In this document: piece after piece, positions 3,685 to 18,697 of the stretch
Layout: the number at the start of each line of letters is the position of its first letter
Position numbering within the stretch: position 1 is the stretch's first letter
Origin: Agaricus subrufescens
Lineage: Eukaryota; Basidiomycota; Agaricomycetes; Agaricales; Agaricaceae
Direction of reading: 5' to 3'
Assembly (NCBI GenBank): GCA_029945375.1
Contig: CM057069.1
Location: 1,525,677-1,589,676 of the forward strand
DNA: 64,000 nucleotides
Position numbers and translations under genes: made by a program
The notes under the pieces: generated by a model
What the model was told of the DNA's origin: nothing
The model's input: the letters and a program-made list of their open reading frames with translations, nothing else
The model's database searches: none

Positions 3685-6388
3685 CTAAAACAACCCCAAC
3701 AAATCTTCCTGCGGTTGCTGTCCCCCCGTCTGCGTCTGCGTCTGTTGTCTCCCAGCACCAGCACCACCCCCACCCGAAATCGACAACCCCCCCAACTCCG
3801 CAAGCGGATCCACAACACCCGACATCCTCTTCCCACTATTCCCACCACCACCACCACCACCACCACCACCAGCCAAACCCTGCATCCCACCAAACGCACC
3901 CCCACCACCACTCCCATTCGTCCCAAAAATAGAAACAAGATCATCCAACGGATTACTCGACATCCCAGAAAGCAAATTCGCCGCAGCAGGCGTTTGCGAA
4001 AGTACCTCCGTAGCCGCCAGACCAGACGGTTGTCCTCCCATCGTCGAAGAAACTTCTTCATCGTCATCGAAATCGCTAAAACACAAAAAAAGATGTAAAT
4101 GAGTATAAAGAAAATTAAATTAAATTTTAGGATTGGATTGGACGTACAGAAGATTCTCCGCTTGTCGTCCCGCCACAACTGTTTGTAACGCTTTCTGTGC
4201 CGCAAGTCTATCATCATCCGCTCTAAACAAAAAAGTCAACAACCAAACTCTCAAAATAAGAACCCCCGGGCCACACATACCCCGCTTTTCTTTGCACAGA
4301 ATCAATCCCAATCCTCCCCTTCCCAATAAAAGTCTCCGCAGGTTTATGATAAACACTCGCAAGCGTCGGTATCTCTCCCAACAACTCTTCCAACAACGCC
4401 GGCGCAACCGTCGTCCTCTGTATCGAAATCGGTGGCTTATTAGCCCAAACGACAGCCTTGGCAGCACCGGGATCCGTGGAAAGCAATCTCCAATAGATGT
4501 ACGCTCTATCCCTCACATCTGGAGAATCGCATTCCTTCGTGGCGGTGTCTAGTATTCGTTGGACTAGCCCTTGTGATGTGTCGGGTTTCTTGAGGAAAAG
4601 TTTGACTACGGCTGTGAGGGTTTGTAGTTGAACCTGTTTTTTTTATCACAGAGTCAGTTATGGCTGATTGGAAGGAATGGAAGAAACGCATAGGGGCGCG
4701 TATACTCCATAGATGAGCTATACTCACCGGATACGATTCCTCTGTAAAAGTGTCTACAAAGAACCCAAGTAGTGAATCGGCATTGTTGATTTTATTCGCA
4801 TACTCTCCGATGATCCATATCAGAGATGCTTTTGCTTCTGGTTCTTCCAGTTCATCCAGGTTGGCACACAAAGTAGGAATAACACCCTCATAAGTAGATG
4901 GATACCGGCGGAAGATATCCTGTATACCACAAACGATGAGGAACAACAAACCAATTGATAAGTGAATCACACATACTTTCATGACGACAACGGCTTCTTG
5001 TACCACGTAGCTGACTCGTGTAGCAATGAGCTCAAGAAGAACGTTAACGCAGCGTTCAGCCGCAGACTCTATTTTGATCGCCGTTTGACCAATAGCCTTG
5101 ATACTCTTCCGCACAAAATCAACATCAACCTCCGAAGCGTACCTGCGGTCGAAATGAAAATCTAAACTCGCGGGATATGAAAAGTATTACTCACTCTTTA
5201 AGCTCGCTCAATAGCGCGTCCACGTTGTTATCCGACGCTAAACGAACCATAATATCCAGCTTCTCCACCTTGACATACAGCGGATCGTTATACTTGCAGA
5301 AAAAGACCCTCATTTCGTTTGAGAGGATGTCGGGTCGTTTCTGGAGCAAGAGATTGATATTTCGGAGTGCGACCCACTGCACTTCGGGAGGAGATGAGAG
5401 TAGTGTGACGAGTGGTGGGGCCATCTTCTTGACGAGTTGTTTGATGAGGTCCTCTCTTGTAACGTGGCGCATGTGGATCATGATAACCTTTACTGCTGCG
5501 AGTACCACACTGCCGTTGATATGCTGAAACTGTGGCACGACGCGTTCACAGATATGTTCGGATTCTTTTTCGTCTTGGGCTATGTACCGGGCGAGGGCAT
5601 TCAGAACGGCAACACGGCCCCACTCTGAGCATTCGTTTAGAGCGATGAGGAGTTTGTTGAGGATCGAGCCTGTGATGTTGAAGATGGCAGTATCATCGGG
5701 TTGTATAGCGGGATTAGAAGAGGCGGAAGCGTGGATGTCTGTGAGAGCGGCGACGGTGTTGGCGACTACCTACAAATCAAAGCAACATGAGTGTGAAAGA
5801 GCTGGAGAAGAAAGGCTCACCATAGGGTTCGAATCCGATATCATGTCATGCAACTGGGTCAAAAAGCCGTTCTCAATGACCAGATCGGGTTTGAGGTCGT
5901 ACAACTTTGCTACGCAGAGTGCTGCGGTCTTCCTAACGTAGGGATTCTCATCCCGCAGGCTTTTTTGCAACGGATCGCAGAGGTAATCGATAATCTTCTC
6001 TGCTCTGAGACAGCCCATGGTCCTGATTGCGAGGGCACGGACAAGAGGGTTTGGATCATCGGCGTCCTTGACGAAGGTGTTGACGGCGAGGATGACGAGT
6101 TCGGGCTGGGTCTTGGCATAGTTCATTAGGTATAGGTACACGAGTTTCTTCTGCTCCAGGTCTTCGGTCTGCATGTTTTTGAGGACATCAGGAAAGAGGC
6201 CGCTGACATCTGTCGGAGGGAGGTTAGGTGCCAGTGAGAGTAGAGAGGCCGAGAGGATAGCGACCCTTGCCAACGGTCATGGAGGCGATGACGCGTTTAA
6301 TGGCATCTTTTCGTTTATCGCGGTATTCGCTGTTGAGGTCGACGCTGAGCTCGTAGTTTTCGCCTTTGCGGGGCCCTCGAATGCTCAT
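3685..6388 (-). CDS. APL2: AP-1 complex subunit beta (beta-adaptin)
   Basis: Large subunit of the clathrin adaptor AP-1, which sorts cargo between the trans-Golgi network and endosomes. Eight exons: 6388-6265, 6209-5821, 5769-5195, 5142-4977, 4919-4728, 4633-4281, 4222-4148 and 4075-3685. All phases agree and give 754 residues. The start [19 protein letters not shown] and the run of HEAT-type helices ([48 protein letters not shown]) are those of the adaptin trunk. The last exon is a Gly-rich hinge ending in DLLGLF, a clathrin-box-like tail; there is no C-terminal ear. Fungal AP-1 beta subunits are of similar length and lack the animal-style appendage. Choice of AP-1 over AP-2 rests on that length and is less certain than the adaptin call. 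Confidence 0.93.
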
Positions 6389-6655
6389 GGGGTCGGGAAG
6401 AGATCTGCTCGGCGGCCATATAAGGCAATCCCTCGGTCATCTCCTCGCCAAGACGTGATATGTTAGGTTCGCCCCAAGACACGTCATTACTCGGGAGTCG
6501 CAACTGACAATCAAGCTCGTTCATTGTGTAGAATGGACAGCCCTGTAGGGTCCCCCAGCCCCCCGTCGCAAAACGTAAATCGTGAGAAGGAGAGGCAGAG
6601 TACATAAGGGTTCCACCTGCCCCATCTCCTATCCCCCTTCCTGTCCTCGAACCCC

Positions 6656-7806
6656 ATGGCCCGCATCTTCTGCATCCCCGGTGCCGCCATTCTGTTTGCG
6701 GCCTTTGTCCTCAACCTCATCGTCTCCATCTCCCTTCCCTTCCTACCCGCCCTCGACGTCACGCGCACGCATTTCCAGCACGTCGCTTCAGACAATGGCC
6801 AGAGCAGTATCAGCCAGATTCGAGTGAGTCTTTCTCTCCAGCCGTCTGCCTTGACTTATATTATTTCTCCAGTTCGGTATATGGTCTGTCATTACAGCAT
6901 CCCACCATCGCCTCTCATCTCTAACACTTCCGTCCTCAGGGCACCATGCACCTACACCCAAGACGATGACCGCACTTGTATAAAGCAAGGTCACGACCAC
7001 AACCTTCTGTTATCCTCATATACTCAACCCCACCTAGGTCACGCCTACAGCGTCACTGTGTCGAGCCAAGGCCAACAGTCCAACCAAGTAACAATCGCCC
7101 CATCGTGGACTCGTGGCCTCGCCATCCATCCAGTCGGTATGTCAATCAAACTTCTCCTTTTGTTCATCACCCCAAAAGTCTCCAATCCCCGTGTCTCCGA
7201 TCTCACTAATCATTAACCTCTTCCAACAGCCGCCGCTGTCTCGCTATTGGCCGTACTACTCTCGCTATCCGAAAACCTGACCGTCGTTCTCGCGGCGACA
7301 TTGACCGCATGGCTGGCGGGTCTCATCACACTAATCGCTTTCCTCTGCGATGTAGTCCTATTCGCACATTCAAGGACTCAATTCAAGAAACTCAATCTCG
7401 GCACCCGAACTATTCCTGGACCAGGTGAGCTAATCTATAAACTCTATTACCCACTATCCCCGCCCAATTGCCACCACTCCCTTCCATACGTCAATTCCTT
7501 AAATTGGCTTAAACCTCATCCTCTTTCAAACGTTTCTAACACCACACCCCAATTTCGCTAGGATTCTGGATCAGTCTCGCTGCCTTGATCCTTCTCTTCC
7601 TCGGCGGTATCACCACATGCCTCGGCCGGATCAAAGATCGCCGCACCAAACACAAAGACTTCTCCAACATGCAATCCGTCAGAGCTCAAGCCCTCAAGAT
7701 GGATGAGAAACACGACGGAAAAGACAGGAAATTCGGCAGTGACGCTATCGAACTTTCTACTCCCAACAAAAATTGGGCTGGGAAATTCAAGTTTGGTAAA
7801 AACTAG
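6656..7806 (+). CDS. SUR7/PalI family four-helix plasma-membrane protein
   Basis: The predicted protein of 255 residues has the layout of the SUR7/PalI (Rim9-like) family: an N-terminal helix (residues about 8-32), an extracellular loop with a Cys pair near the G.W.C region, then three helices. Exons are 6656-6823, 6873-6883, 6940-6989, 7038-7136, 7230-7424 and 7562-7806. The second exon is only 11 nt but is required to keep phase and forms FGIW. The tail (residues about 195-255) is charged and cytosolic. Family members act in ambient pH sensing (PalI/Rim9) or in eisosomes (Sur7). Which applies here cannot be told from sequence. It lies head-to-head with the AP-1 beta gene, with about 270 nt between the start codons. 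Confidence 0.82.
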
Positions 7807-8125
7807 GATTGCTTTTTCTTTTCCTATCCCGAGTTATTTTTTTTTTCTTGCTTTTCGGCTTTTTTGTTCTGCGTAGATAAATGATATGCTGTGATGCTAC
7901 TGCTCTTCTCTTGCGACATGCTAGAATGTACTTCATTCTCCGAAAAATGAACATTTAATGATCAGTTCCCTTATTTCTATTGTAACCGCCAGAGATAATC
8001 TAAGAAGGGATCATTTGTAATTACATTATCGATAACGTCATGTAAACTTTTTACGTGGAAGTTAATGTGAGAATAGGGAGTACTTAGTACTAGACTCTCT
8101 CGACAACTAGACTAGATCCAGCAAC
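7807..8125. other. 3' flank of the SUR7/PalI gene, no gene seen
   Basis: T-rich sequence follows the stop codon, as expected for a 3' untranslated region. There is no further coding signal before the SDH4-like fragment. Confidence 0.6.
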
Positions 8126-8511
8126 TGAGCTGCCTCGCAGAGCTGATCAAACATATGTTATCCCACATGTTAGATTCCTCATCTCGCAGTTCCCACCGTT
8201 TCTACAGAAATGACCACTTCCGAGAGCTGTCGCGTGTCGCGCTGTTGTGTATGTCTGCAATATGTCACCCCACTAGCTAGATTACTGATCCTTTGTAGCT
8301 CGCGTAATTTCTACAGGCACTGTAAATGACCCCTCCAACATTCCTTCCTTGCTCCACAGGTTCTTAAAACTGGACATTCGAGCATCTACTTTCAGCTAGT
8401 CTTGTCCCCTCATTGCTGCCACTTTCACTACTTGCACACTTGCTCAACCTATTCTTGATGGACTCCATGGTGTCAGCCTGATCGTTCATCCTCACATCAC
8501 GGTATGTGCAT
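8126..8511 (+). pseudogene. SDH4-like (succinate dehydrogenase anchor) fragment, copy 1
   Basis: This is a degenerate copy, in opposite orientation, of the sequence at 19980-20364. The end (about 8390-8500) still aligns base for base with the exon of copy 2 that encodes PAQPIIDGLLSVSLIVHSHI, a segment resembling the membrane anchor CybS of mitochondrial complex II. The frame is lost. It stops exactly where transposon A1 begins, at the TA of 8512-8513; the expected continuation is not found on the far side of A1. The same 120-bp-spaced internal duplication (tttctacaggca.. and tttctacagg..) is present in both copies, so the sequence was already rearranged before it was copied. Confidence 0.7.
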
Positions 8512-11445
8512 TACAGTGGGGGACAAAACCATTCCAATGTTTTGTACCTTTGGAAAGAATGTTATATACCAGCACACATAAAGTGTTCAAAATCTTGAGG
8601 ACATTTATGAGCATATCTTAGTATCTAAGCTACCATTGTATGATGTTATGTGGCTGTACAGTTATTATTGGTCATTATATAATACTTTTAAGTCAAGAGC
8701 ATCATTGGAACAGTTTTGTCCCTGTACATTGAAAATACAGAATTAGCTACTTATCAAGGCAGAGGATACTATTTTCTGGCTATCAAAGCTACAAATGGTA
8801 GATTTGGTATTGATGCCATCAATATCTGATAAAATGCTGCTGATATGATATCAGAATCCATCTACATATATGCTACTATAAAGATTAGATACTTTATTAA
8901 GTAGTAAATCTTTAATCTCTAGCTTATTATTACATTGTCTTCAAGGCTTGTGATGTAATTTATATTAAAACAGTTATCTAAGTACAATAATATACTGGAT
9001 TATGTAATTTATGCCATTTAAAGACTTATTTGCTGACATAAATATGATTATCCTTAGGTAGAAATATGCTTTCATCTATTTTTTGCACACAAACAACCCA
9101 CTTGCTGGAAAGCTGATTGTTTCACTTAATGCTATAAATGTTAGTGCTTATGTAACAATCAATCAAAGAGCAAACAAAAGCTTTGACCTTCCTCCACAAG
9201 CCTGTATTTGTACATAAATATATAGTAGACTCTAGAGAGTATCTGTAAAAGTGCACCAGGGCTTGTTTCTGATGACTAATCAAGATACAAATAGGCTCAG
9301 AATATTGAGAATAATAGATTATAATCATATGTAACTGAAAACATGCTGATGGAAGTGTAAGAGCTTTACAAGCAGAGGGTAAAAAGTATTAGTGTGTATA
9401 AATGAAAAAAATTGTACTGTAAGATTGCATGGAATGGGCAAGAGCTCAAATAAATACTAAACATGAAGTATTATTGAATGTTAATCTTTTCAGATATATT
9501 TTGGAATTTTCACATGATTCAATCCTAGAGTATTATAGGTAGAATATATCAAGTACAAGCTTAACAAATGTGATATACAGTCATCACTCTCTTAACCCAT
9601 ATGCCTCATAACCCATAACCTCTCATACCCCATAGTTTTTCAGAGTTCCCAAGTTGGTTACCACATAATTTTGCCTAAAAGCCCATACCTTCTAATATTC
9701 AATAACCCATACCCATCTGGAGAAAAAACCCATACATTTGACCCTGATTAACAACATGTCATGTCATTTACTGAGCTTTTAAAATTTAAATCCTTATATA
9801 CTGAGCAAGCTAGCAGCCTAAAATACCCAAAATATAATAATCTTGAACTTGTGGAGGGTTGGGGCAGTGCCTGAATTTCATCTTCGATCATGGCTAAACA
9901 CCCTAAGGCCCCCATTACTGTTCTCAAAAAGGGTCTAGAGAAATTAAAACAGAAGATTCAGATCTGCAAGGTTGACCTCAAGGCTAGGCTTCAAAAGAAG
10001 GAAAAATTGGCAGTTGTTGATAAGGAATAGTTGGATAACAATGGAAATATCATTCAGGAGCAATGTGTTGTTGAGATTTTGGAAGCAGCATCTGATTATG
10101 AGTGAGAATATGAAGAACTTGATGAAAATGGCAAAGGAATTGTTCAACGTCTTCATAAACTGACTGGAGATCATGTTAGAATTATTGGTAACAAGAGAAA
10201 ACATACAGATAATTTTTTGTTTCAAAGGCTATCATTTTCTAAACTTTGATTTACTAGGACCCAAAAATCTGTCAAAGCCAGAAAAATGTAGTAATATCAA
10301 GGAACCAGAAAATCCTCTCCTGATTTCCATGAAAAAGAAGAATGCATCACTTGAGCAAAGAATTGAAATCCTTGATTGGCATCACAAAAATGGCAAAAAT
10401 CAATCAAAAACTGCACATGAGTTCAAGAAAAAGTATTCCAATATGAGGCTTGGACAACCTCTTATCTCAGATTGGTTAAAAAATGAAGAGAAGTGGAGAG
10501 CTGATTGGGAAGTGGCTAGTGGGCAAGCTGCACACAAGGCAAAGCATATCTGACAAACTCAGCATCCAGAAATAACTGATATGCTTGATTTATGGATTCT
10601 CATGCTGATGGCTCAGAAAACCTGCAGCCACTTGTAATGGGAAAAGCTCAAAAGCCTTGTGCCTTTAGAAACAAGTCAGCTGCTCAGCTTGGTTTCTATT
10701 ACTGGAACAATGCCAAAGCATGGATGATGATGGATATATACCAGGAATGGCTAAATGACTGGGACCAGAAACTAGCTATTAATGGCTGCAAAATCCTTTT
10801 GATTGTTGATAATTTTTCTGGCCATACGACTCCTCAAGGCCTGAAAAATATTGAAATGATCCATTTCAAACCAAACCTCACCTCATATGTACAACCAGCA
10901 GATCAAGGCATTATTTGTTGTTCTAAAGCCCATTACTGATCATGATACATCAAGAGAGCAATTTTACACTATGATTCTGGGACAACACCAGGCAAAATAT
11001 ACAACATTAATCAACTTGAGGCTATGTGACTTGTGGATGCAGCCTGGAAAAAGGTTGACACAACAACAATTTGACACTGTTGGATCAAGGCTGGCATTCT
11101 CCCATCATCAATTATAAATGCCACAGATGTTATCAGTCCTTCTCTCCCTGTCTTGTCACTTGTTCATATACCCAATCCTCAGACAGACCCAGTTTTGCAG
11201 GTGGAAAATCAACTTCAGGTTGTACTCAATAACTTAGAAAGTACTGGATGCCTTCAACATGCAAATCAGATAGACATAGAGGGTCTTCTTACTCCAGCTG
11301 AAGAATCACTGATCTTTGACAATGCTACAGATCAGGACATATATGAGGCAGTCATAGCCTCACATAATGCTCTGGAAGATATATTAATCAATGGTGGGGA
11401 TGATGACGCTAATGATGATTATGTATCAGAGCCTTACCCCACTTA

Positions 11446-11806
11446 CAGTGGGGGACAAAACCGTTCCAATGTTTTGTACCTTTGGAAAAAATGCTATATA
11501 CCAGCACACATAAAATGTTTAAAATCTTGAGGATATTTATGAGTATACCTTAGTTTCTAAGCTACCATTGTGTGATGTTATGTGACTGTACAGTTATTAT
11601 TGGTCATTATATAATCCTTTTAAGTCAGAGCATCATTGGAACAGTTTTGTCCCTGTACATTGAAAATACAGAATTGGCTACTTATCAAGGCAGAAGATAC
11701 TATTTTCTGGCTATCAAAGCTACAAATGGTAGATTTGGTATTGATCCCATCAATATCTGATCAAATGCTGATCAATATCAGATATCCATCTATATGCTAC
11801 TATAAA
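11446..11806 (+). repeat. left long terminal inverted repeat of A2
   Basis: About 360 bp that reappear inverted at 12655-13020. They contain a 62-codon open frame (11572-11760) that recurs at 12706-12894 and 13562-13750 only because it lies in the repeat. Confidence 0.85.
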
Positions 11807-12654
11807 GATTAGATACTTTGTTAAGTAGTAAATCTTTAATCTCTAGCTTATTATTACATTATCTTCAAGGCTTGTGATGTAATTTATATTAAAACAGTTA
11901 TCTAAGTACAATAATATACTGGATTATGTAATTTATGCCATTTAAAGACTTATTTGCTGACATAAATATGATCATCCTTAGGTAGAAATATACTTTCATC
12001 TATTTTTTGCACACAAACAACCTACTTGCTGGAAAGCTGATTGTTCCAATTAATACTATAGATGTTGGTGCTTATGTAACAATCAATCAAAGAGCAAACA
12101 AAAGCTTTGACCTTCCTCCACAAGCCTGTATTTACATAAATATATAGTAGACTCTAGAGAGTATCTGTAAAAGTGCACCAGGGCTTGTTTCTGATGACTA
12201 ATCAAGATACAAATAGGCTCAGAATATTGAGAATAATAGATTATAATCATATGTAACTGAAAACAATATGCTGATGGAAGTGTAAGAGCTTTACAAGCAG
12301 AGGGTAAAAAGTGTTAGTGTGTATAAATGAAAAAAATTGTACTGTAAGATTGCATAGAATGGGCAAGAGCTCAAATAACTACTAAACATGAAGTATTATT
12401 GAATGTTAGTCTTTTCAGATATATTTTGGAATTTTCACATGATTCAATCCTAGAGTATTATAGGTAGAATATATCAAGTACAAGCTTAACAAATGTGATA
12501 TAGCAGCAAATCAACTTTAAAATAGTATGGATTACCTAAAATTAGATATTGTTGAGTTTAACCAGCCTCTTAATATGATTTTTTCCAAAATACAGTAAAT
12601 AAATATCAATAGTGAGGTAAAAGTTAATGAATTTCTACCTAATAGATTATTACA

Positions 12655-13020
12655 TCTATAGAGCAGCATATAGATGGATTCTGATATCATATCAGCAGCA
12701 TTTGATCAGATATTGATGGCATCAATACCAAATCTACCATTTGTAGCTTTGATAGCCAGAAAATAGTATCCTCTGCCTTGATAAGTAGCCAATTCTGTAT
12801 TTTCAATGTACAGGGACAAAACTGTTCCAATGATGCTCTGACTTAAAAGGATTATATAATGACCAATAATAACTGTACAGCCACATAACATCACACAATA
12901 GTAGCTTAGAAACTAAGGTATACTCATAAATATCCTCAAGATTTTAAACATTTTATGTATGCTGGTATATAGCATTCTTTCCAAAGGTACAAAACATTGG
13001 AACGGTTTTGTCCCCCACTG
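12655..13020 (-). repeat. right long terminal inverted repeat of A2
   Basis: Inverted partner of 11446-11806, with a few substitutions and a small indel next to the inner end. Confidence 0.85.
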
Positions 13021-14000
13021 TATAAAGAGGTTCTTGCAGCTATTTCAACTGTACAGAGGCACATAGACTTAGATTCTGATCTATGTGCACAAAAATTGGA
13101 CTCCATGTTGGATTCATTTAGATACAATCTCCATAGAGAACACTCAAAATCTTTGGAACCTACACTGGTTACAAATTATTTTTGTTGTATTAGTTCCTGA
13201 TGTCCCAATAAACCTTGAATGAATTTTTCCCAATTTTTCCCAATTTTTCCTGTTATTTAGGGCCTATTTTTCACTCGTTTCTCTTAACCTATACCCCCTC
13301 ATAACCCATAGCTCCAAGTGTGTCCCGAGGGGTATAGGTTAAGAAAGTGACAACTGTAGCAGCAAATCAACTTTAAAATGGTATGGATTACATAAACTTA
13401 GATACTTTTGAGTTCAACCAGCCTCTTAATATGAGTTTTGCCAAAATATAATAAATAAATATCAATAGTGAGGTAAAAGTTAATGAATTTCTACCTAATA
13501 GATTATTACATCTATAGAGCAGCATATAGATGGATTCTGATATCATATCAGCAGCATTTGATCAGATATTGATGGGATCAATACCAAATCTACCATTTGT
13601 AGCTTTGATAGCCAAAAAATAGTATCCTCTGCCTTGATAAGTAGCCAATTTTGTATTTTCAATGTACAGGGACAAAACTGTTCCAATGATGCTCTGACTT
13701 AAAAGTATTATATAATGACCAATAATAACTGTACAGCCACATAACATCACACAATGGTAGCTTAGATACTAAGGTATATTAATAAATATCCTCAAGATTT
13801 TAAACATTTTATGTGCACTGGTATATAGCATTCTTTGCAAAGGTACAAAACATTGGAACAGTTTTGTTCCCCACTGTATGTACAACTTCAGTTGATTTCC
13901 TGGCCATTTACACAATTCATCATTTGTATACTATTCTTAGATTGCCCTCATCATGATGCCTTTGAAAATATCCTGTCTCCTTTCATAAACCTTGCTTCAG

Positions 14001-17000
14001 TCACCTGGTTCTAGTTACAATAAGTCTGCCCACATGCCTTATTTTTTTAGTATTAGTATTAAGGAACATAATCACCATGTACACTTGCTTACCCTCAGAA
14101 TTGTGTGTTACTATTTCAATTGCTTGATTTTCTCTATTTTGCATTATTGTGTTGTATTTAGAAAAGATACAATATCTTTTCTCCTTTGCATCTCCTACTA
14201 AAAGAGCAACTTGGGCACTGGAAACTGCTCCACAGATAAGCACTGGTAAATCTGGTGATTGTTGCAAAAACACTTTTGTTTGGTGATCAATAGGCTTGAG
14301 AAATGGAATGAAAAGATCATTCACAATTTGCAGTTTACAATTTGAGTTACTCACATGCTAAACCAGGAATTGTAGAAGAGGTAATGGTCATTCACAGGAC
14401 CCAGGTCACTAACAATTAGACTTACAAGCTGATCAAAGAATTGTGGAAGAGAAATTGATGAGTCACAGATCTCAGGTCACCAACAGATAGACTTACACGC
14501 TGAGTCAAGAATTGTGAAAGAGGAAATAATCAGTCACAGACTCCAGGTCACTGATAGATGGACTTACATGCTGATCCAGGGATTGAGGAAGAGGAAATGA
14601 TTAGTCACAGACTCCAACCCACCAACAAATGGGCTTACAGCCTGATCAAGGAATTGTGGAAGAAGAAATGGTCAGTCACAGACCTCAGGTCACCAACAGA
14701 TGGACCTACATGCTGACCCAGGAATTGTGGAAGAGGAATAATCAGTCACAGACCCCCAGGTCACCAACAGATGGACTTACATACTGATCCAGGAGTTGTG
14801 GAAAAGGAAATGATGAGTTATGAGCCCCAGGTCACTAACAAATGGACTTACATGCTGATCCAGGAATTGTGGAAGAGGAAATGATTAGTCACAAATGTTA
14901 GATCACCAACAGATGGACTTACATGCTGATCCAGGAATTGTGAAAGAGTAAATGATCAGTCACAGATCCCAGATCACCAAGAGATGGACTTACACGCTAT
15001 TCCAGGAATTGTGAAAGAGGAACTGATCAGTCACAGACCTTAGGTCATCAACAGATGGACTTACATGATGATCCAGGAGCTGTGGACAAGAAAATAATTA
15101 GTTACAGATCCCAGGTCTCCAACACTTAGACTTACAGGCTGATCCAGGAATTGGGGAAACAGAAATGATCAGTCACAGGCCCCAGTTCACCAACAGATGG
15201 ACCTACATACTGATCCAGGAATTGGAAAAGAGGGAGTGATCAGTCTTGGACCCCAGGTCACCAACAGGTGGACTTACAGCCTGATCTGAAAACTGTGGAC
15301 AAGGAAATGATCAGTCATGGACCCCAGGTTACCAACAGATGGACTTACAGCCTGTTCCAAGAACTATGGACAAGGAACTGATCAATCATAAACCCCAGGT
15401 CACCAGTAGATGGACTTACAGGCTGATTCAGGAATTGTGAAAGAGGAAATGATTAGTCACAAACACCAGGTCACCAACAGATGGACTTACAGCCTGATCC
15501 AGGAATTGTGAAAGAGGAGATGATTAGTCATAGACCCTAGGTCTCCAACAGATGGACTTACAGCCTGTTCCACAACCTGTGGACAAGGAATTGATCAGTC
15601 ATAGACTCAGGCCATCAACAAATGGACTTACATGCTGATCCAGGAATTGTGAAAGAGAAACTAATCAGTCACAGACCCCAGGTCACCAACAAATAGACTT
15701 ACATGCTGATCCAGGAATTGTGAAAGCACAAATGATCAGTCACAGGCCCCAGGTCACCAACAGATCAACTTACAGCCTGATCCAACAATTGTGGACAAGG
15801 AAATGTCAGTCACAGACCCCAGGTCACCAACAGATGGACTTACATCCTGATCCAGGAATTATGGAAGAGGAAATGATCAGTCACAAACCCCAGGTCACCA
15901 ATAGATGAACTTACAGGCTTATACAGGAATTGTGGAAGAGGAAATGGTTAGTCACAGACTCCAGGTCACCCACAAATGGACTTACAGACTGATTCAGGAA
16001 TCATGGAAGAGAAAATGATCAGTCATAGACCCCAGGTCACCAACAGATGGACTTACAGGCTGATTCAGGAATTGTAGAAGAGGAAATAATCAGTCACAGA
16101 TCCCAGGTCACCAATAGATAGACTTACAGCCTAATCCCAGAATTGTGGAAGAAGAAATGATTAGTCACAGACCCCAGATTACCAACAGATGGACTTACAC
16201 CCTAATCCAAGAATTGTGAAAGAGGAAATTATCAGTCACAGACCCCAGGTCACCAATAATGGACTTACAGGCTGATCCAGGAGTTGTGGAAGAGGAAATG
16301 ATCAGTCACAGCCCCCAGATTACCAACAGATGAACTTACACGCTGATTCAGGAATTGTAAAAGAGGAACTGATCAGTCACAAAATGCAGGTCACCAACAG
16401 ATGGACTTACAGGCTAATCCAGGAATTGTGGAAGAGGAAATGGTTAGTCACAGACTGCAGGTCACCAACAGATGGACTTACAGGCTGATTCAGGAATTGT
16501 GGAAGAGAGGAAATGATCAGTCACAGACCCCCGGGCCACCAACAGATGAACTTACATCCTGATCCAGGAATTGTGGAAGAGGACATGGTCAGTTACACAC
16601 CGCACCTAAGCGACTGATGTACTTACCTCTTCAATCACGTAATTTTCATTATCGTCATAGTCAACGTCCAGATCATTGAAATGGACTTTCTCAAACATGT
16701 CAACATTACCAGCCCTGTGTGGATATTCCTGTAATAGTAATGAGAGTGCGAAATATTTGATGTTATGTATGATATTACCACCCAAGATTCAAATGCTTGT
16801 TTAACGAATGAAAATAGGATCACAGGTCCATCCCATGGAGTGAAGGGACCATGGTTGTAGTTGCATAGACGACTCATGTTGATATTTTGTAAAGAGTTTA
16901 AAAACTCATCGTACTTTTGCTGCGATCCCGACGAGACCCCTCCGTGAGGCTCATGGCTCTTCACTATCTGAGTCAGTAGTGTTCGACCCATGTCCGTGAG

Positions 17001-18697
17001 AATGCCTCTGGTGAATGCCGCAGTGTCTTTTTCTGGCATCCCTTGTAACTCGTTTTGCAAAGAATCGGTACCAGAAGCTGAACGCGAGTATGAGCATCCC
17101 TCAAACATGATGACGAATACACTCAAACATACCAACATTCTCTCCAAAATGTTTATACCACAGGTTGAGATAGCCCGATAGGACATCGATCTCCACATCA
17201 TGAACATCAATATAAAACTCTCCCGATCTTTGCGCATCCGTCAAGTAGTCGGGGAAAGAAGCATGTAAGAAGGTCAACGGTGTCGTGTGTGCTTCTTCCC
17301 AAGGCGGTATCTTAAGCGTTGATATGCATTTTGTGAGAGCAGGATAGACCCGATGAAGCTCTAGCTGGAGAATCGTGGCCATGCCTCTGAGAGTTCTGGA
17401 CTTTGACGAAGCCCGAAGCCCAGAAGCAGTGCTGCTGCGGAATAACAATGTCGCCCCGAGCAAGAGTTTTGTTATGTTTAACAATTCCGGTGGGATTCTC
17501 AAGAGAATTTCCCTATACAAGTTATCGAGGTTCTTGAAAGGCTGCTCCGCGCTCGAAACACTCTTCGAACCATCAATAGCGGATAAGACACGATCGAGTC
17601 GTGAGATAGGATTAGAGTGATCAGGATCCTTGATGAAACGAATTGCGGTTTGCGCAAAAATGAAGTGGCCAGAGGAAGCCTCCGCGAGTTTGGCGAGGAC
17701 AGTGTTTCCAGGCCAATCATCTGGGGTAGGGCCAGGAAACTCGTCTCGTATGGTGCGGAAGCTATCAGCCAAGAAGCGTCGAACGTCGTCCCGAGCATCT
17801 AGGGCGTTGATGAAGATAGAGTGCGACTCAAACCGGCCTTGTATGGAGGCCTCTTTGAACGTGTTGGTTACATGGAGCTCCGGACGACTCGCGATAATCC
17901 ACGCGAGGGGCTTATCACGATGCTCCCGTGTAAACTTGCTGATGATTCGGATAATGTCCCGTTGGGGGCCCACACCCTCGACCTCGTCAAGTCCATCCAG
18001 CAAGATAGCCATGGGTAGCCCACCCGTTCCAATCTTCCTCACTACGAATGGCTCGATGATGAAGGCTCGAAATTGAGCCTCCATGTTTTTGGTGAGGATG
18101 CTGGGGTTGATAGTAATTCGATCGACGATATAGTCGCGGTAGGCCTCAATACGATGAGCGAGTTGATTCGCGATGGTAACAAAGATACGGTTTGGGTCAT
18201 TACAGTTATTTGGTCGCGAAATAAATACAGAAACGACGCGATCCCCGATTTTTTCCGCAAAGGTTTGCATGATGGCAGATTTGCCGACCCCAGCAGGTCC
18301 AGTCAGCAGGAAAAGGGAATTCAAGCGGGAGATATCATCGAACCAGGTAAGGAGTAATTCGAGAATCGCTTCACGTGTACCGGGATGACACCTGGGCGGG
18401 TATTGGCGTGAAGAATCATCATGGGCTGCACCATCGATGATATACTTTAAGATCAATCCCATAACTAGGGATAAGACAAGACGAATAAGTAGGGTTCTCG
18501 AATAGATGACGCAGCTATCCTCACCATAGCGCATTTTATCCTCTCCTTGAGTTTCCACCATGACGGGATTGTTCAAAACAAAGTGGTGAGCTCCAGACAA
18601 GAAACCACTAGAGCCAGAGGACACTGCGACAATCATGAGCAGCTGACTATTGTGAAAGCACACATAGAAACGCACCTTGTATGTGCGGGGAAGCCAT
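14001..18697 (-). CDS. NACHT-domain NTPase (fungal NLR-like), with a repeat-expanded intron
   Basis: STAND-type NTPase of the kind that Agaricomycetes hold in large numbers, thought to act in non-self recognition or regulated cell death. Exons: 18697-18676, 18623-18525, 18464-17133, 17077-16779, 16728-16627 and probably 14357-14001. Phases agree; 736 residues with the last exon. The N-terminus carries GFLSGAHHFVLNNPVMVE, common in this group. Then come the RCHPGTREAI linker, Walker A (LTGPAGVGKSAIMQT), Walker B (AILLDGLDEVEG) and a sensor-like IIASRPELH. No WD, TPR or ankyrin repeats follow. Exon 5 ends at a perfect GTAAGT donor at the edge of the 71-bp array; the next in-frame sequence is beyond the array (14357). 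Unspliced, the frame would stop seven codons into the intron. The last exon is AT-rich and unrecognised, so that part of the model is tentative. Confidence 0.75.
14358..16626 (-). repeat. tandem array of about 32 intron-like 71-bp units
   Basis: Read on the minus strand, each unit is an intron of about 68 nt. It starts GTAAGTCC, has a CTGAT or CTGAC branch-site match about 30 nt before the end, a pyrimidine-rich stretch (tttcctcttcc) and the acceptor GGATCAG. Three bases of the form NNT (mostly CAT, CCT or GCT) then precede the next GTAAGT. The span of 2269 bp plus the final triplet equals 32 x 71. The first unit (16626-16559) is exactly 68 nt, starts at the donor of NACHT exon 5, and is the most divergent in its 5' half. 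The last unit ends at the acceptor 14358, followed by CAT. Confidence 0.9.

Follow-up and report, generated by a model that had tools for sequence, protein, structure and literature searches.

In the open-access accounts of Tuber melanosporum, NACHT-ANK genes are described that contain tens of codon-sized (3-bp) exons, and alternative splicing of these exons is regarded as a possible means of diversifying the recognition domain (PMC4986451, PMC3689799, PMC10197012, PMC9815663, with Iotti et al. 2012 as their source). The gene analysed here lies on the minus strand of a 64,000-nt stretch of the Agaricus subrufescens genome, the whole of which we call the window. It resembles the Tuber genes, as far as they are presented in these accounts, in belonging to an expanded NACHT NLR family with dozens of predicted 3-bp exons in the C-terminal region. 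The 32 triplets in the window and the 424 junctions in the fetched family match the Tuber anatomy, here as read from sequence alone. The opinion of a preliminary description that no described class fits this array is therefore not supported. Unlike the ankyrin-bearing ascomycete Tuber of those accounts, however, the present host is a basidiomycete, its gene gave no ankyrin match, and its C-terminal domain is short and has no Pfam match. Compared with what they report, the basidiomycete host, the other type of NLR and the combination of fixed signals with diversified codons appear to be new.

A related case is that of the NWD NLRs of Podospora anserina, whose WD40 repeats are described as evolving in concert while specific positions diversify (PMC4986451). 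Near-identical repeats with hypervariable codon positions are also found here, as DNA units and not as protein repeats; the Podospora repeat, as described in that source, is a coding WD40 unit, whereas the repeated unit of A. subrufescens is intronic, with the variable codon making up an entire predicted exon. Reports from Arabidopsis and Drosophila describe exons of 1 and 3 nt (PMC4674806, PMC7392893). Among the papers listed by searches of an open-access library for microexons, tandem introns and single-codon exons, there was neither a second case of codon-exon arrays nor a report of such arrays in a basidiomycete.

Micro-exon genes of schistosomes produce protein variation via differential splicing of small exons. 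They are comparable to the present case in this respect, but their exons comprise several codons each and they are not known to encode NLRs. Diversity-generating retroelements act on NNY variable codons, of which the first two positions vary while a pyrimidine as third base avoids stops; the triplets described below are similar in that codon positions 1 and 2 vary and the third base is a fixed pyrimidine.

The host gene and its array

The gene consists of three exons, the array and a last exon. Its features, taken from the gene model (for exon 1 also from Pfam, for the array also from TRF), are as follows:

17133..18636, minus strand: exon 1, N-terminus and NACHT/NPHP3_N domain, phase 1 at its end
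17078..17132, minus strand: intron 1, ordinary, 55 nt, GTATGT...CAG
16779..17077, minus strand: exon 2
16729..16778, minus strand: intron 2, ordinary, 50 nt, GTAATA...CAG
16627..16728, minus strand: exon 3, 34 codons, phase 0 at its end, which is the first array donor
14295..16626, minus strand: array, 33 introns and 32 putative single-codon microexons
16556..16558, minus strand: microexon 1 (GAT), with successors about every 71 bp
15068..15069, minus strand: sole broken acceptor of the window array, AT instead of AG
14355..14357, minus strand: microexon 32, the last (CAT)
14295..14354, minus strand: intron 33, the last, 60 nt, diverged from the unit, GTGAGT...CTCAAG
14001..14294, minus strand: last exon, in frame, contributing helix and strands to the C-terminal domain

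The predicted start codon of exon 1 was picked by likeness to P0001. The first stop of the last exon ends at 14001, and there may be an additional intron ahead of it. The gene encodes a NACHT/NPHP3_N NLR: the Pfam match to NPHP3_N (E about 3e-13 to 4e-13) is over its cut-off, and that to NACHT (E 1.3e-5, 25.5 bits) falls just below the cut-off of 26.7. Ankyrin (ANK), WD40 and TPR repeats were absent from the 16 Pfam matches obtained at E up to 1 with a spliced model of 735 aa, and the Pfam search found no name for the C-terminal domain. If all 32 triplets are retained, including the one behind the broken acceptor, the predicted protein has 764 residues, and those read from the 32 microexons are DPPRPGAPSPDAHHAAPAAYPHRHHYHAHRLH. 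Of 193 protein matches, 120 were listed; the relatives with names in this list belong to the Agaricaceae, the best being an Agaricus bisporus protein (58%), and metagenome proteins reach 76%. With the C-terminal region, the protein database returned two metagenome relatives only, each covering 31% of the region. Exon 2 has matches at 24 places in the genome (its own included), and a paralog's last exon at 25.

TRF detected a period of 71 with 31.7 copies between 14349 and 16597. Read from donor to donor on the minus strand, from 16626 to 14355, the array consists of 32 units which add up to 2272 bp and thus to exactly 32 x 71, as had been proposed, though individual lengths range from 70 to 74 bp: 28 units measure 71 bp, three measure 70 and a single one 74. 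Each unit extends from a donor to an acceptor and ends with one triplet, and the three-base NNT spacer of the preliminary description is present in 32/32 cases; the gap between acceptor and next donor is 3 nt throughout (32/32, 31 of them with AG). Equally correct was the statement that the array starts at the donor of a real exon, since the exon 3 product ends with ...NYVIEE in phase 0 and is followed by GTAAGT. The splice signals proved less uniform than had been assumed. GTAAGT, ascribed to every unit, is found at 29 of 33 donors (GTAGGT at two, GTAAGC and GTGAGT at one each), and the acceptor, likewise ascribed to every unit as CAG, retains AG before the triplet in 31 of 32 units and reads AT in the remaining one. 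This broken acceptor counts against a microexon reading. The CTGAT/CTGAC branch site is true in a loose sense only, with CTAAT, CTCAT or AATGAC in some units; the YTRAY pattern is far above shuffles (see below).

Chains of three GTAAGT donors, joined through YAG and 3 nt, were counted 20 times in the window, with start points that all lie between 16626 and 14567; 20 letter-shuffled windows contained none. A coding repeat read through the unspliced array is ruled out by 47–58 stops per frame (52, 58 and 47 over the three frames).

Downstream of the NLR gene there is an AT-rich block (8500-13900 of the window) with direct copies of 94-100% identity, most of them at 2.9-kb spacing, and with inverted arms of ~330 nt whose complementarity is 95-98%. 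The block has the appearance of a transposon cluster adjoining the last exon. Past this block, exons for an Adaptin N-terminal region on the minus strand (4506-6276) belong to an ordinary vesicle-coat gene. The window represents the last 64 kb of its contig (C13), and a telomere repeat is absent from the final 1 kb.

Splice signals and triplets across the gene family

Two DNA searches of the A. subrufescens genome (44.65 Mb, 44 contigs), whose copy counts are lower bounds, located copies in at least 27 groups of places. The 25 stretches fetched from these, together with the window, contain 25 arrays, each with a minimum of four units, as well as two units that stand alone. All of these arrays, of which the genome has at least 25, adjoin one or both of the two family exons, and signals are mostly kept; only the two lone units (L032, L033) are without adjoining family exons. 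The preliminary description had named, as a refuting finding, related genomes in which the repeat lies outside genes with decayed sites; within this one genome, the 25 arrays do not show such a situation. An introner element would be expected in many unrelated genes; the copies located here, as a lower bound, are those in the 25 arrays beside family exons and the two lone units. A phase-0 exon at the donor side is present in 22 of 25 arrays and an in-frame last exon in 22 of 25, with both in 19. The six arrays without both exons in frame comprise two truncated by contig ends (L013, L016), three damaged ones (L020, L021, L012b) and L030, which was missed by the motif filter, yet has an open exon 3. 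These three damaged paralogs and L027, whose exon 3 contains a stop, argue against the microexon reading.

TRF periods across the family are mostly 71 or 72 bp, and 69-73 bp in decayed arrays. NACHT exons 54-84% identical to that of the window are found, among the matches listed, upstream in at least 22 of 23 other array loci; these matches include none upstream of L021. A NACHT search of the genome, with 77 of 907 candidates scored, and four further stretches (L034-L037) show that NLRs devoid of an array are also present. Contig C6 carries the arrays L025 and L026 at a distance of 556 kb; over 1736 bp they share every letter, and either duplicated very recently or were duplicated in the assembly. 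In L020, a 264-bp tandem repeat with 7.2 copies (6048-7928) lies ~400 bp downstream of the last array unit, and the last exon was not found downstream of the array. The location of several arrays looks subtelomeric: they lie either no more than ~0.2 Mb from the end of a contig (C1, C13) or on a small one (C25, C27).

Alignment of the family provided 424 junctions, 27 of 451 rows being dropped as incomplete or containing insertions. Of these, 420 retain AG, 423 retain GT and 397 the full GTAAGT. Departures were counted against the consensus of each array after ten near-duplicate, broken or very short loci had been dropped. They amount to 1/665 for GT, 5/648 for AG and 20/1328 for donor positions +3 to +6, as compared with 1445/17080 for the other intron letters. 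Within the triplet they reach 164/324 at position 1 and 187/323 at position 2, and 31/327 at position 3. A YTRAY motif 12-50 nt from the acceptor is present in 251 of 291 introns from 16 arrays (mean 111 and maximum 131 in 200 shuffles), and the strict form CTRAY at this distance in 87 of 291 (mean 47, maximum 68). In the same introns the branch T and the branch A show 0/291 departures each, and the letters between and after them vary in 34 and 18 of 290 cases. The units had been cut by the donor and not by the branch. GT, the branch A and AG are hence held against drifting background letters, the pattern typical for spliceosomal introns.

The triplets behave differently. Mean within-array diversity is 0.64 at codon position 1, 0.71 at position 2 and 0.16 at position 3, against values at or below 0.30 for all intron columns save two (0.44, 0.35). 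Nine arrays contain a total of 148 unit pairs whose introns are identical to the letter, and codon positions 1-2 differ in 115 of them (at one position in 51, at both in 64) and are the same in 33. No such pair exists in the window array, in which all 32 of 32 introns are distinct. With a mean distance of 0.21 they are not homogenised, which speaks against the microexon reading, and the argument from identical introns therefore rests on the paralogs. In 12 arrays, codon and intron distances are uncorrelated (r -0.12 to 0.21); mean intron distance is at most 0.091 in ten of them, and L017 (0.23) resembles the window.

Several properties of the triplets were examined with regard to coding. The triplet and its neighbour (columns 33-37) contain one insertion and one deletion in 434 rows, with ten odd junction rows overall. 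There is no stop among the 424 aligned triplets, and the two TGA returned by a looser regex both fall inside introns. In the non-duplicate arrays the corresponding figure is 0/330, with a chance of 0.18 if only third bases are shuffled and of 0.03 if all positions are; without near-duplicates, the signal of stop avoidance is thus weak. Non-T third bases give residues outside the reach of NNT somewhat more often than expected, in 19 of 45 cases (null mean 14.4, P 0.035), and all twenty residues are represented. Taken by themselves these codon tests are weak; strong evidence for codons comes from diversity being concentrated at positions 1-2. A change from T to C at position 3, although always synonymous, occurs once in 424 triplets; because NNC is almost absent, which speaks against an account at the level of codons only, the third base is held by something other than the code, probably by splicing or descent.

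Interpretation of the array and its origin

We consider it very likely that the triplets are single-codon, phase-0 microexons coding for a hypervariable stretch in the C-terminal domain of an NLR, with introns that are spliced and an array that was amplified from an ordinary intron. Each unit would comprise a spliceosomal intron of ~68 nt and an NNT triplet as one-codon exon, and splicing of the introns, singly or in groups, would insert up to 32 residues between the first strand and the next helix of this domain. As all microexons are 3 nt long and in phase 0, any subset could be skipped without a frameshift, and hence many protein variants may be possible from one gene. Among the three options put forward in the preliminary description, variable one-codon microexons in an NLR-like protein are thus the best supported, in view of phase 0, open flanking exons, triplets hypervariable at positions 1-2 and splice signals fixed across the family.

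The other two options, a recursive-splicing array or a huge composite intron in pure form, leave the hypervariable spacer unexplained. Excision of the whole array as one composite intron, or stepwise by recursive splicing, would mean that the triplets never appear in mRNA. The frame would survive skipping of the entire array, since the end of exon 3 and the beginning of the last exon are both in phase 0, and broken inner acceptors would be harmless. Nonetheless, we regard this scenario as very unlikely because it accounts neither for near-random letters at positions 1-2, and not at position 3, out of 71 columns nor for the unit-by-unit retention of inner donors, branch letters and acceptors. 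Zero-length exons and split splice sites, the hallmarks of recursive splicing and stwintrons, are absent from the window units. Tandem arrays commonly arise through slippage and unequal exchange, and arrays of high identity and changing copy number are indeed present here. That the array is merely a minisatellite which by chance came to lie within an intron, its units being functionless, is nevertheless extremely improbable given that GT and AG together depart in 6/1313 cases, against the much higher rate elsewhere in the introns, and that the arrays adjoin the same family exons.

The introns are homogenised in most arrays and the codons diversified; the most probable cause of this diversity is selection favouring a varied recognition surface. 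Targeted hypermutation of the triplets, in place of selection on ordinary mutations, would leave the same anatomy. It could explain why codons are near saturation despite identical flanking introns (115/148 pairs), and it is compatible with near-duplicate arrays, where five of eight comparisons show a frequency of change in triplets that is 2.6 to 9.2 times that of other letters (7/51 vs 27/1230; 5/33 vs 53/923; 3/57 vs 15/1435; 22/54 vs 60/1357; 22/58 vs 90/1428), unit gain or loss possibly inflating some of these counts. However, L012a and L018 differ at 0/42 triplet letters and 38/1080 others, which is also a point against the microexon reading as such, and in the pairs L025/L026 and L013/L017 nothing has changed. 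Moreover, strong diversifying selection along with concerted evolution of the introns could give the same pattern, and we therefore deem targeted hypermutation unlikely. Similarly doubtful is a stop-proof library of randomised codons, in which a dedicated process would rewrite positions 1-2 faster than the introns and combinatorial splicing would vary a recognition loop; if this were true, the receptor repertoire of the fungus would extend far beyond its gene number.

With respect to the source of the single-codon microexons and their introns, tandem amplification of an ordinary intron of an ancestral gene may have generated the array. The array-less paralog L036 possesses a 7-codon exon and a 51-nt intron directly before the same last exon, and the first 41 letters of this intron align to the 71-bp unit (z 9.2, 0/2000 shuffles); against the 72-bp unit, z is 6.6. 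The lack of likeness between the L036 intron and the first and last introns of the window array (z 1.2 and 0.1) counts against the overall reading. L037 (500-900), which has no array either, contains a single ordinary intron, in phase 0, at the position of the array, and its C-terminal domain resembles A. bisporus proteins. Within this lineage, a single ordinary intron probably underwent amplification. Since the host is a basidiomycete and the intron of an array-less paralog is homologous to the unit, an origin separate from the design of the ascomycete Tuber is suggested. A relationship of the unit to neighbouring introns was considered as well and dismissed, since z against the 71- and 72-bp units did not exceed 1.4 for window intron 2 or 1.3 for the first L036 intron, and was below 0 for the L037 intron.

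Place in the protein and significance

In an alignment with array-less A. bisporus proteins, the microexon residues follow the first strand of the C-terminal domain and precede its helix. In the model of the array-less homolog P0023 (mean pLDDT 80.9; block means 87, 81, 83, 67 and 90 over residues 621-670), the matching stretch is a hairpin of two strands (644-662) flanked by a strand (623-627) and a helix (667-683). By analogy to NLR biology in general, the microexon stretch may serve as a recognition surface.

Gene annotation and short-read mapping probably overlook arrays of this kind. The family makes it possible to test how the spliceosome handles 32 successive 3-nt exons and how codons diversify beside unchanging flanking introns, and the coexistence of identical introns with diversified codons is the main question that it raises. 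If the array is spliced as we propose, the variable surface of a receptor would be coded codon by codon, and one gene could give rise to very many in-frame variants.
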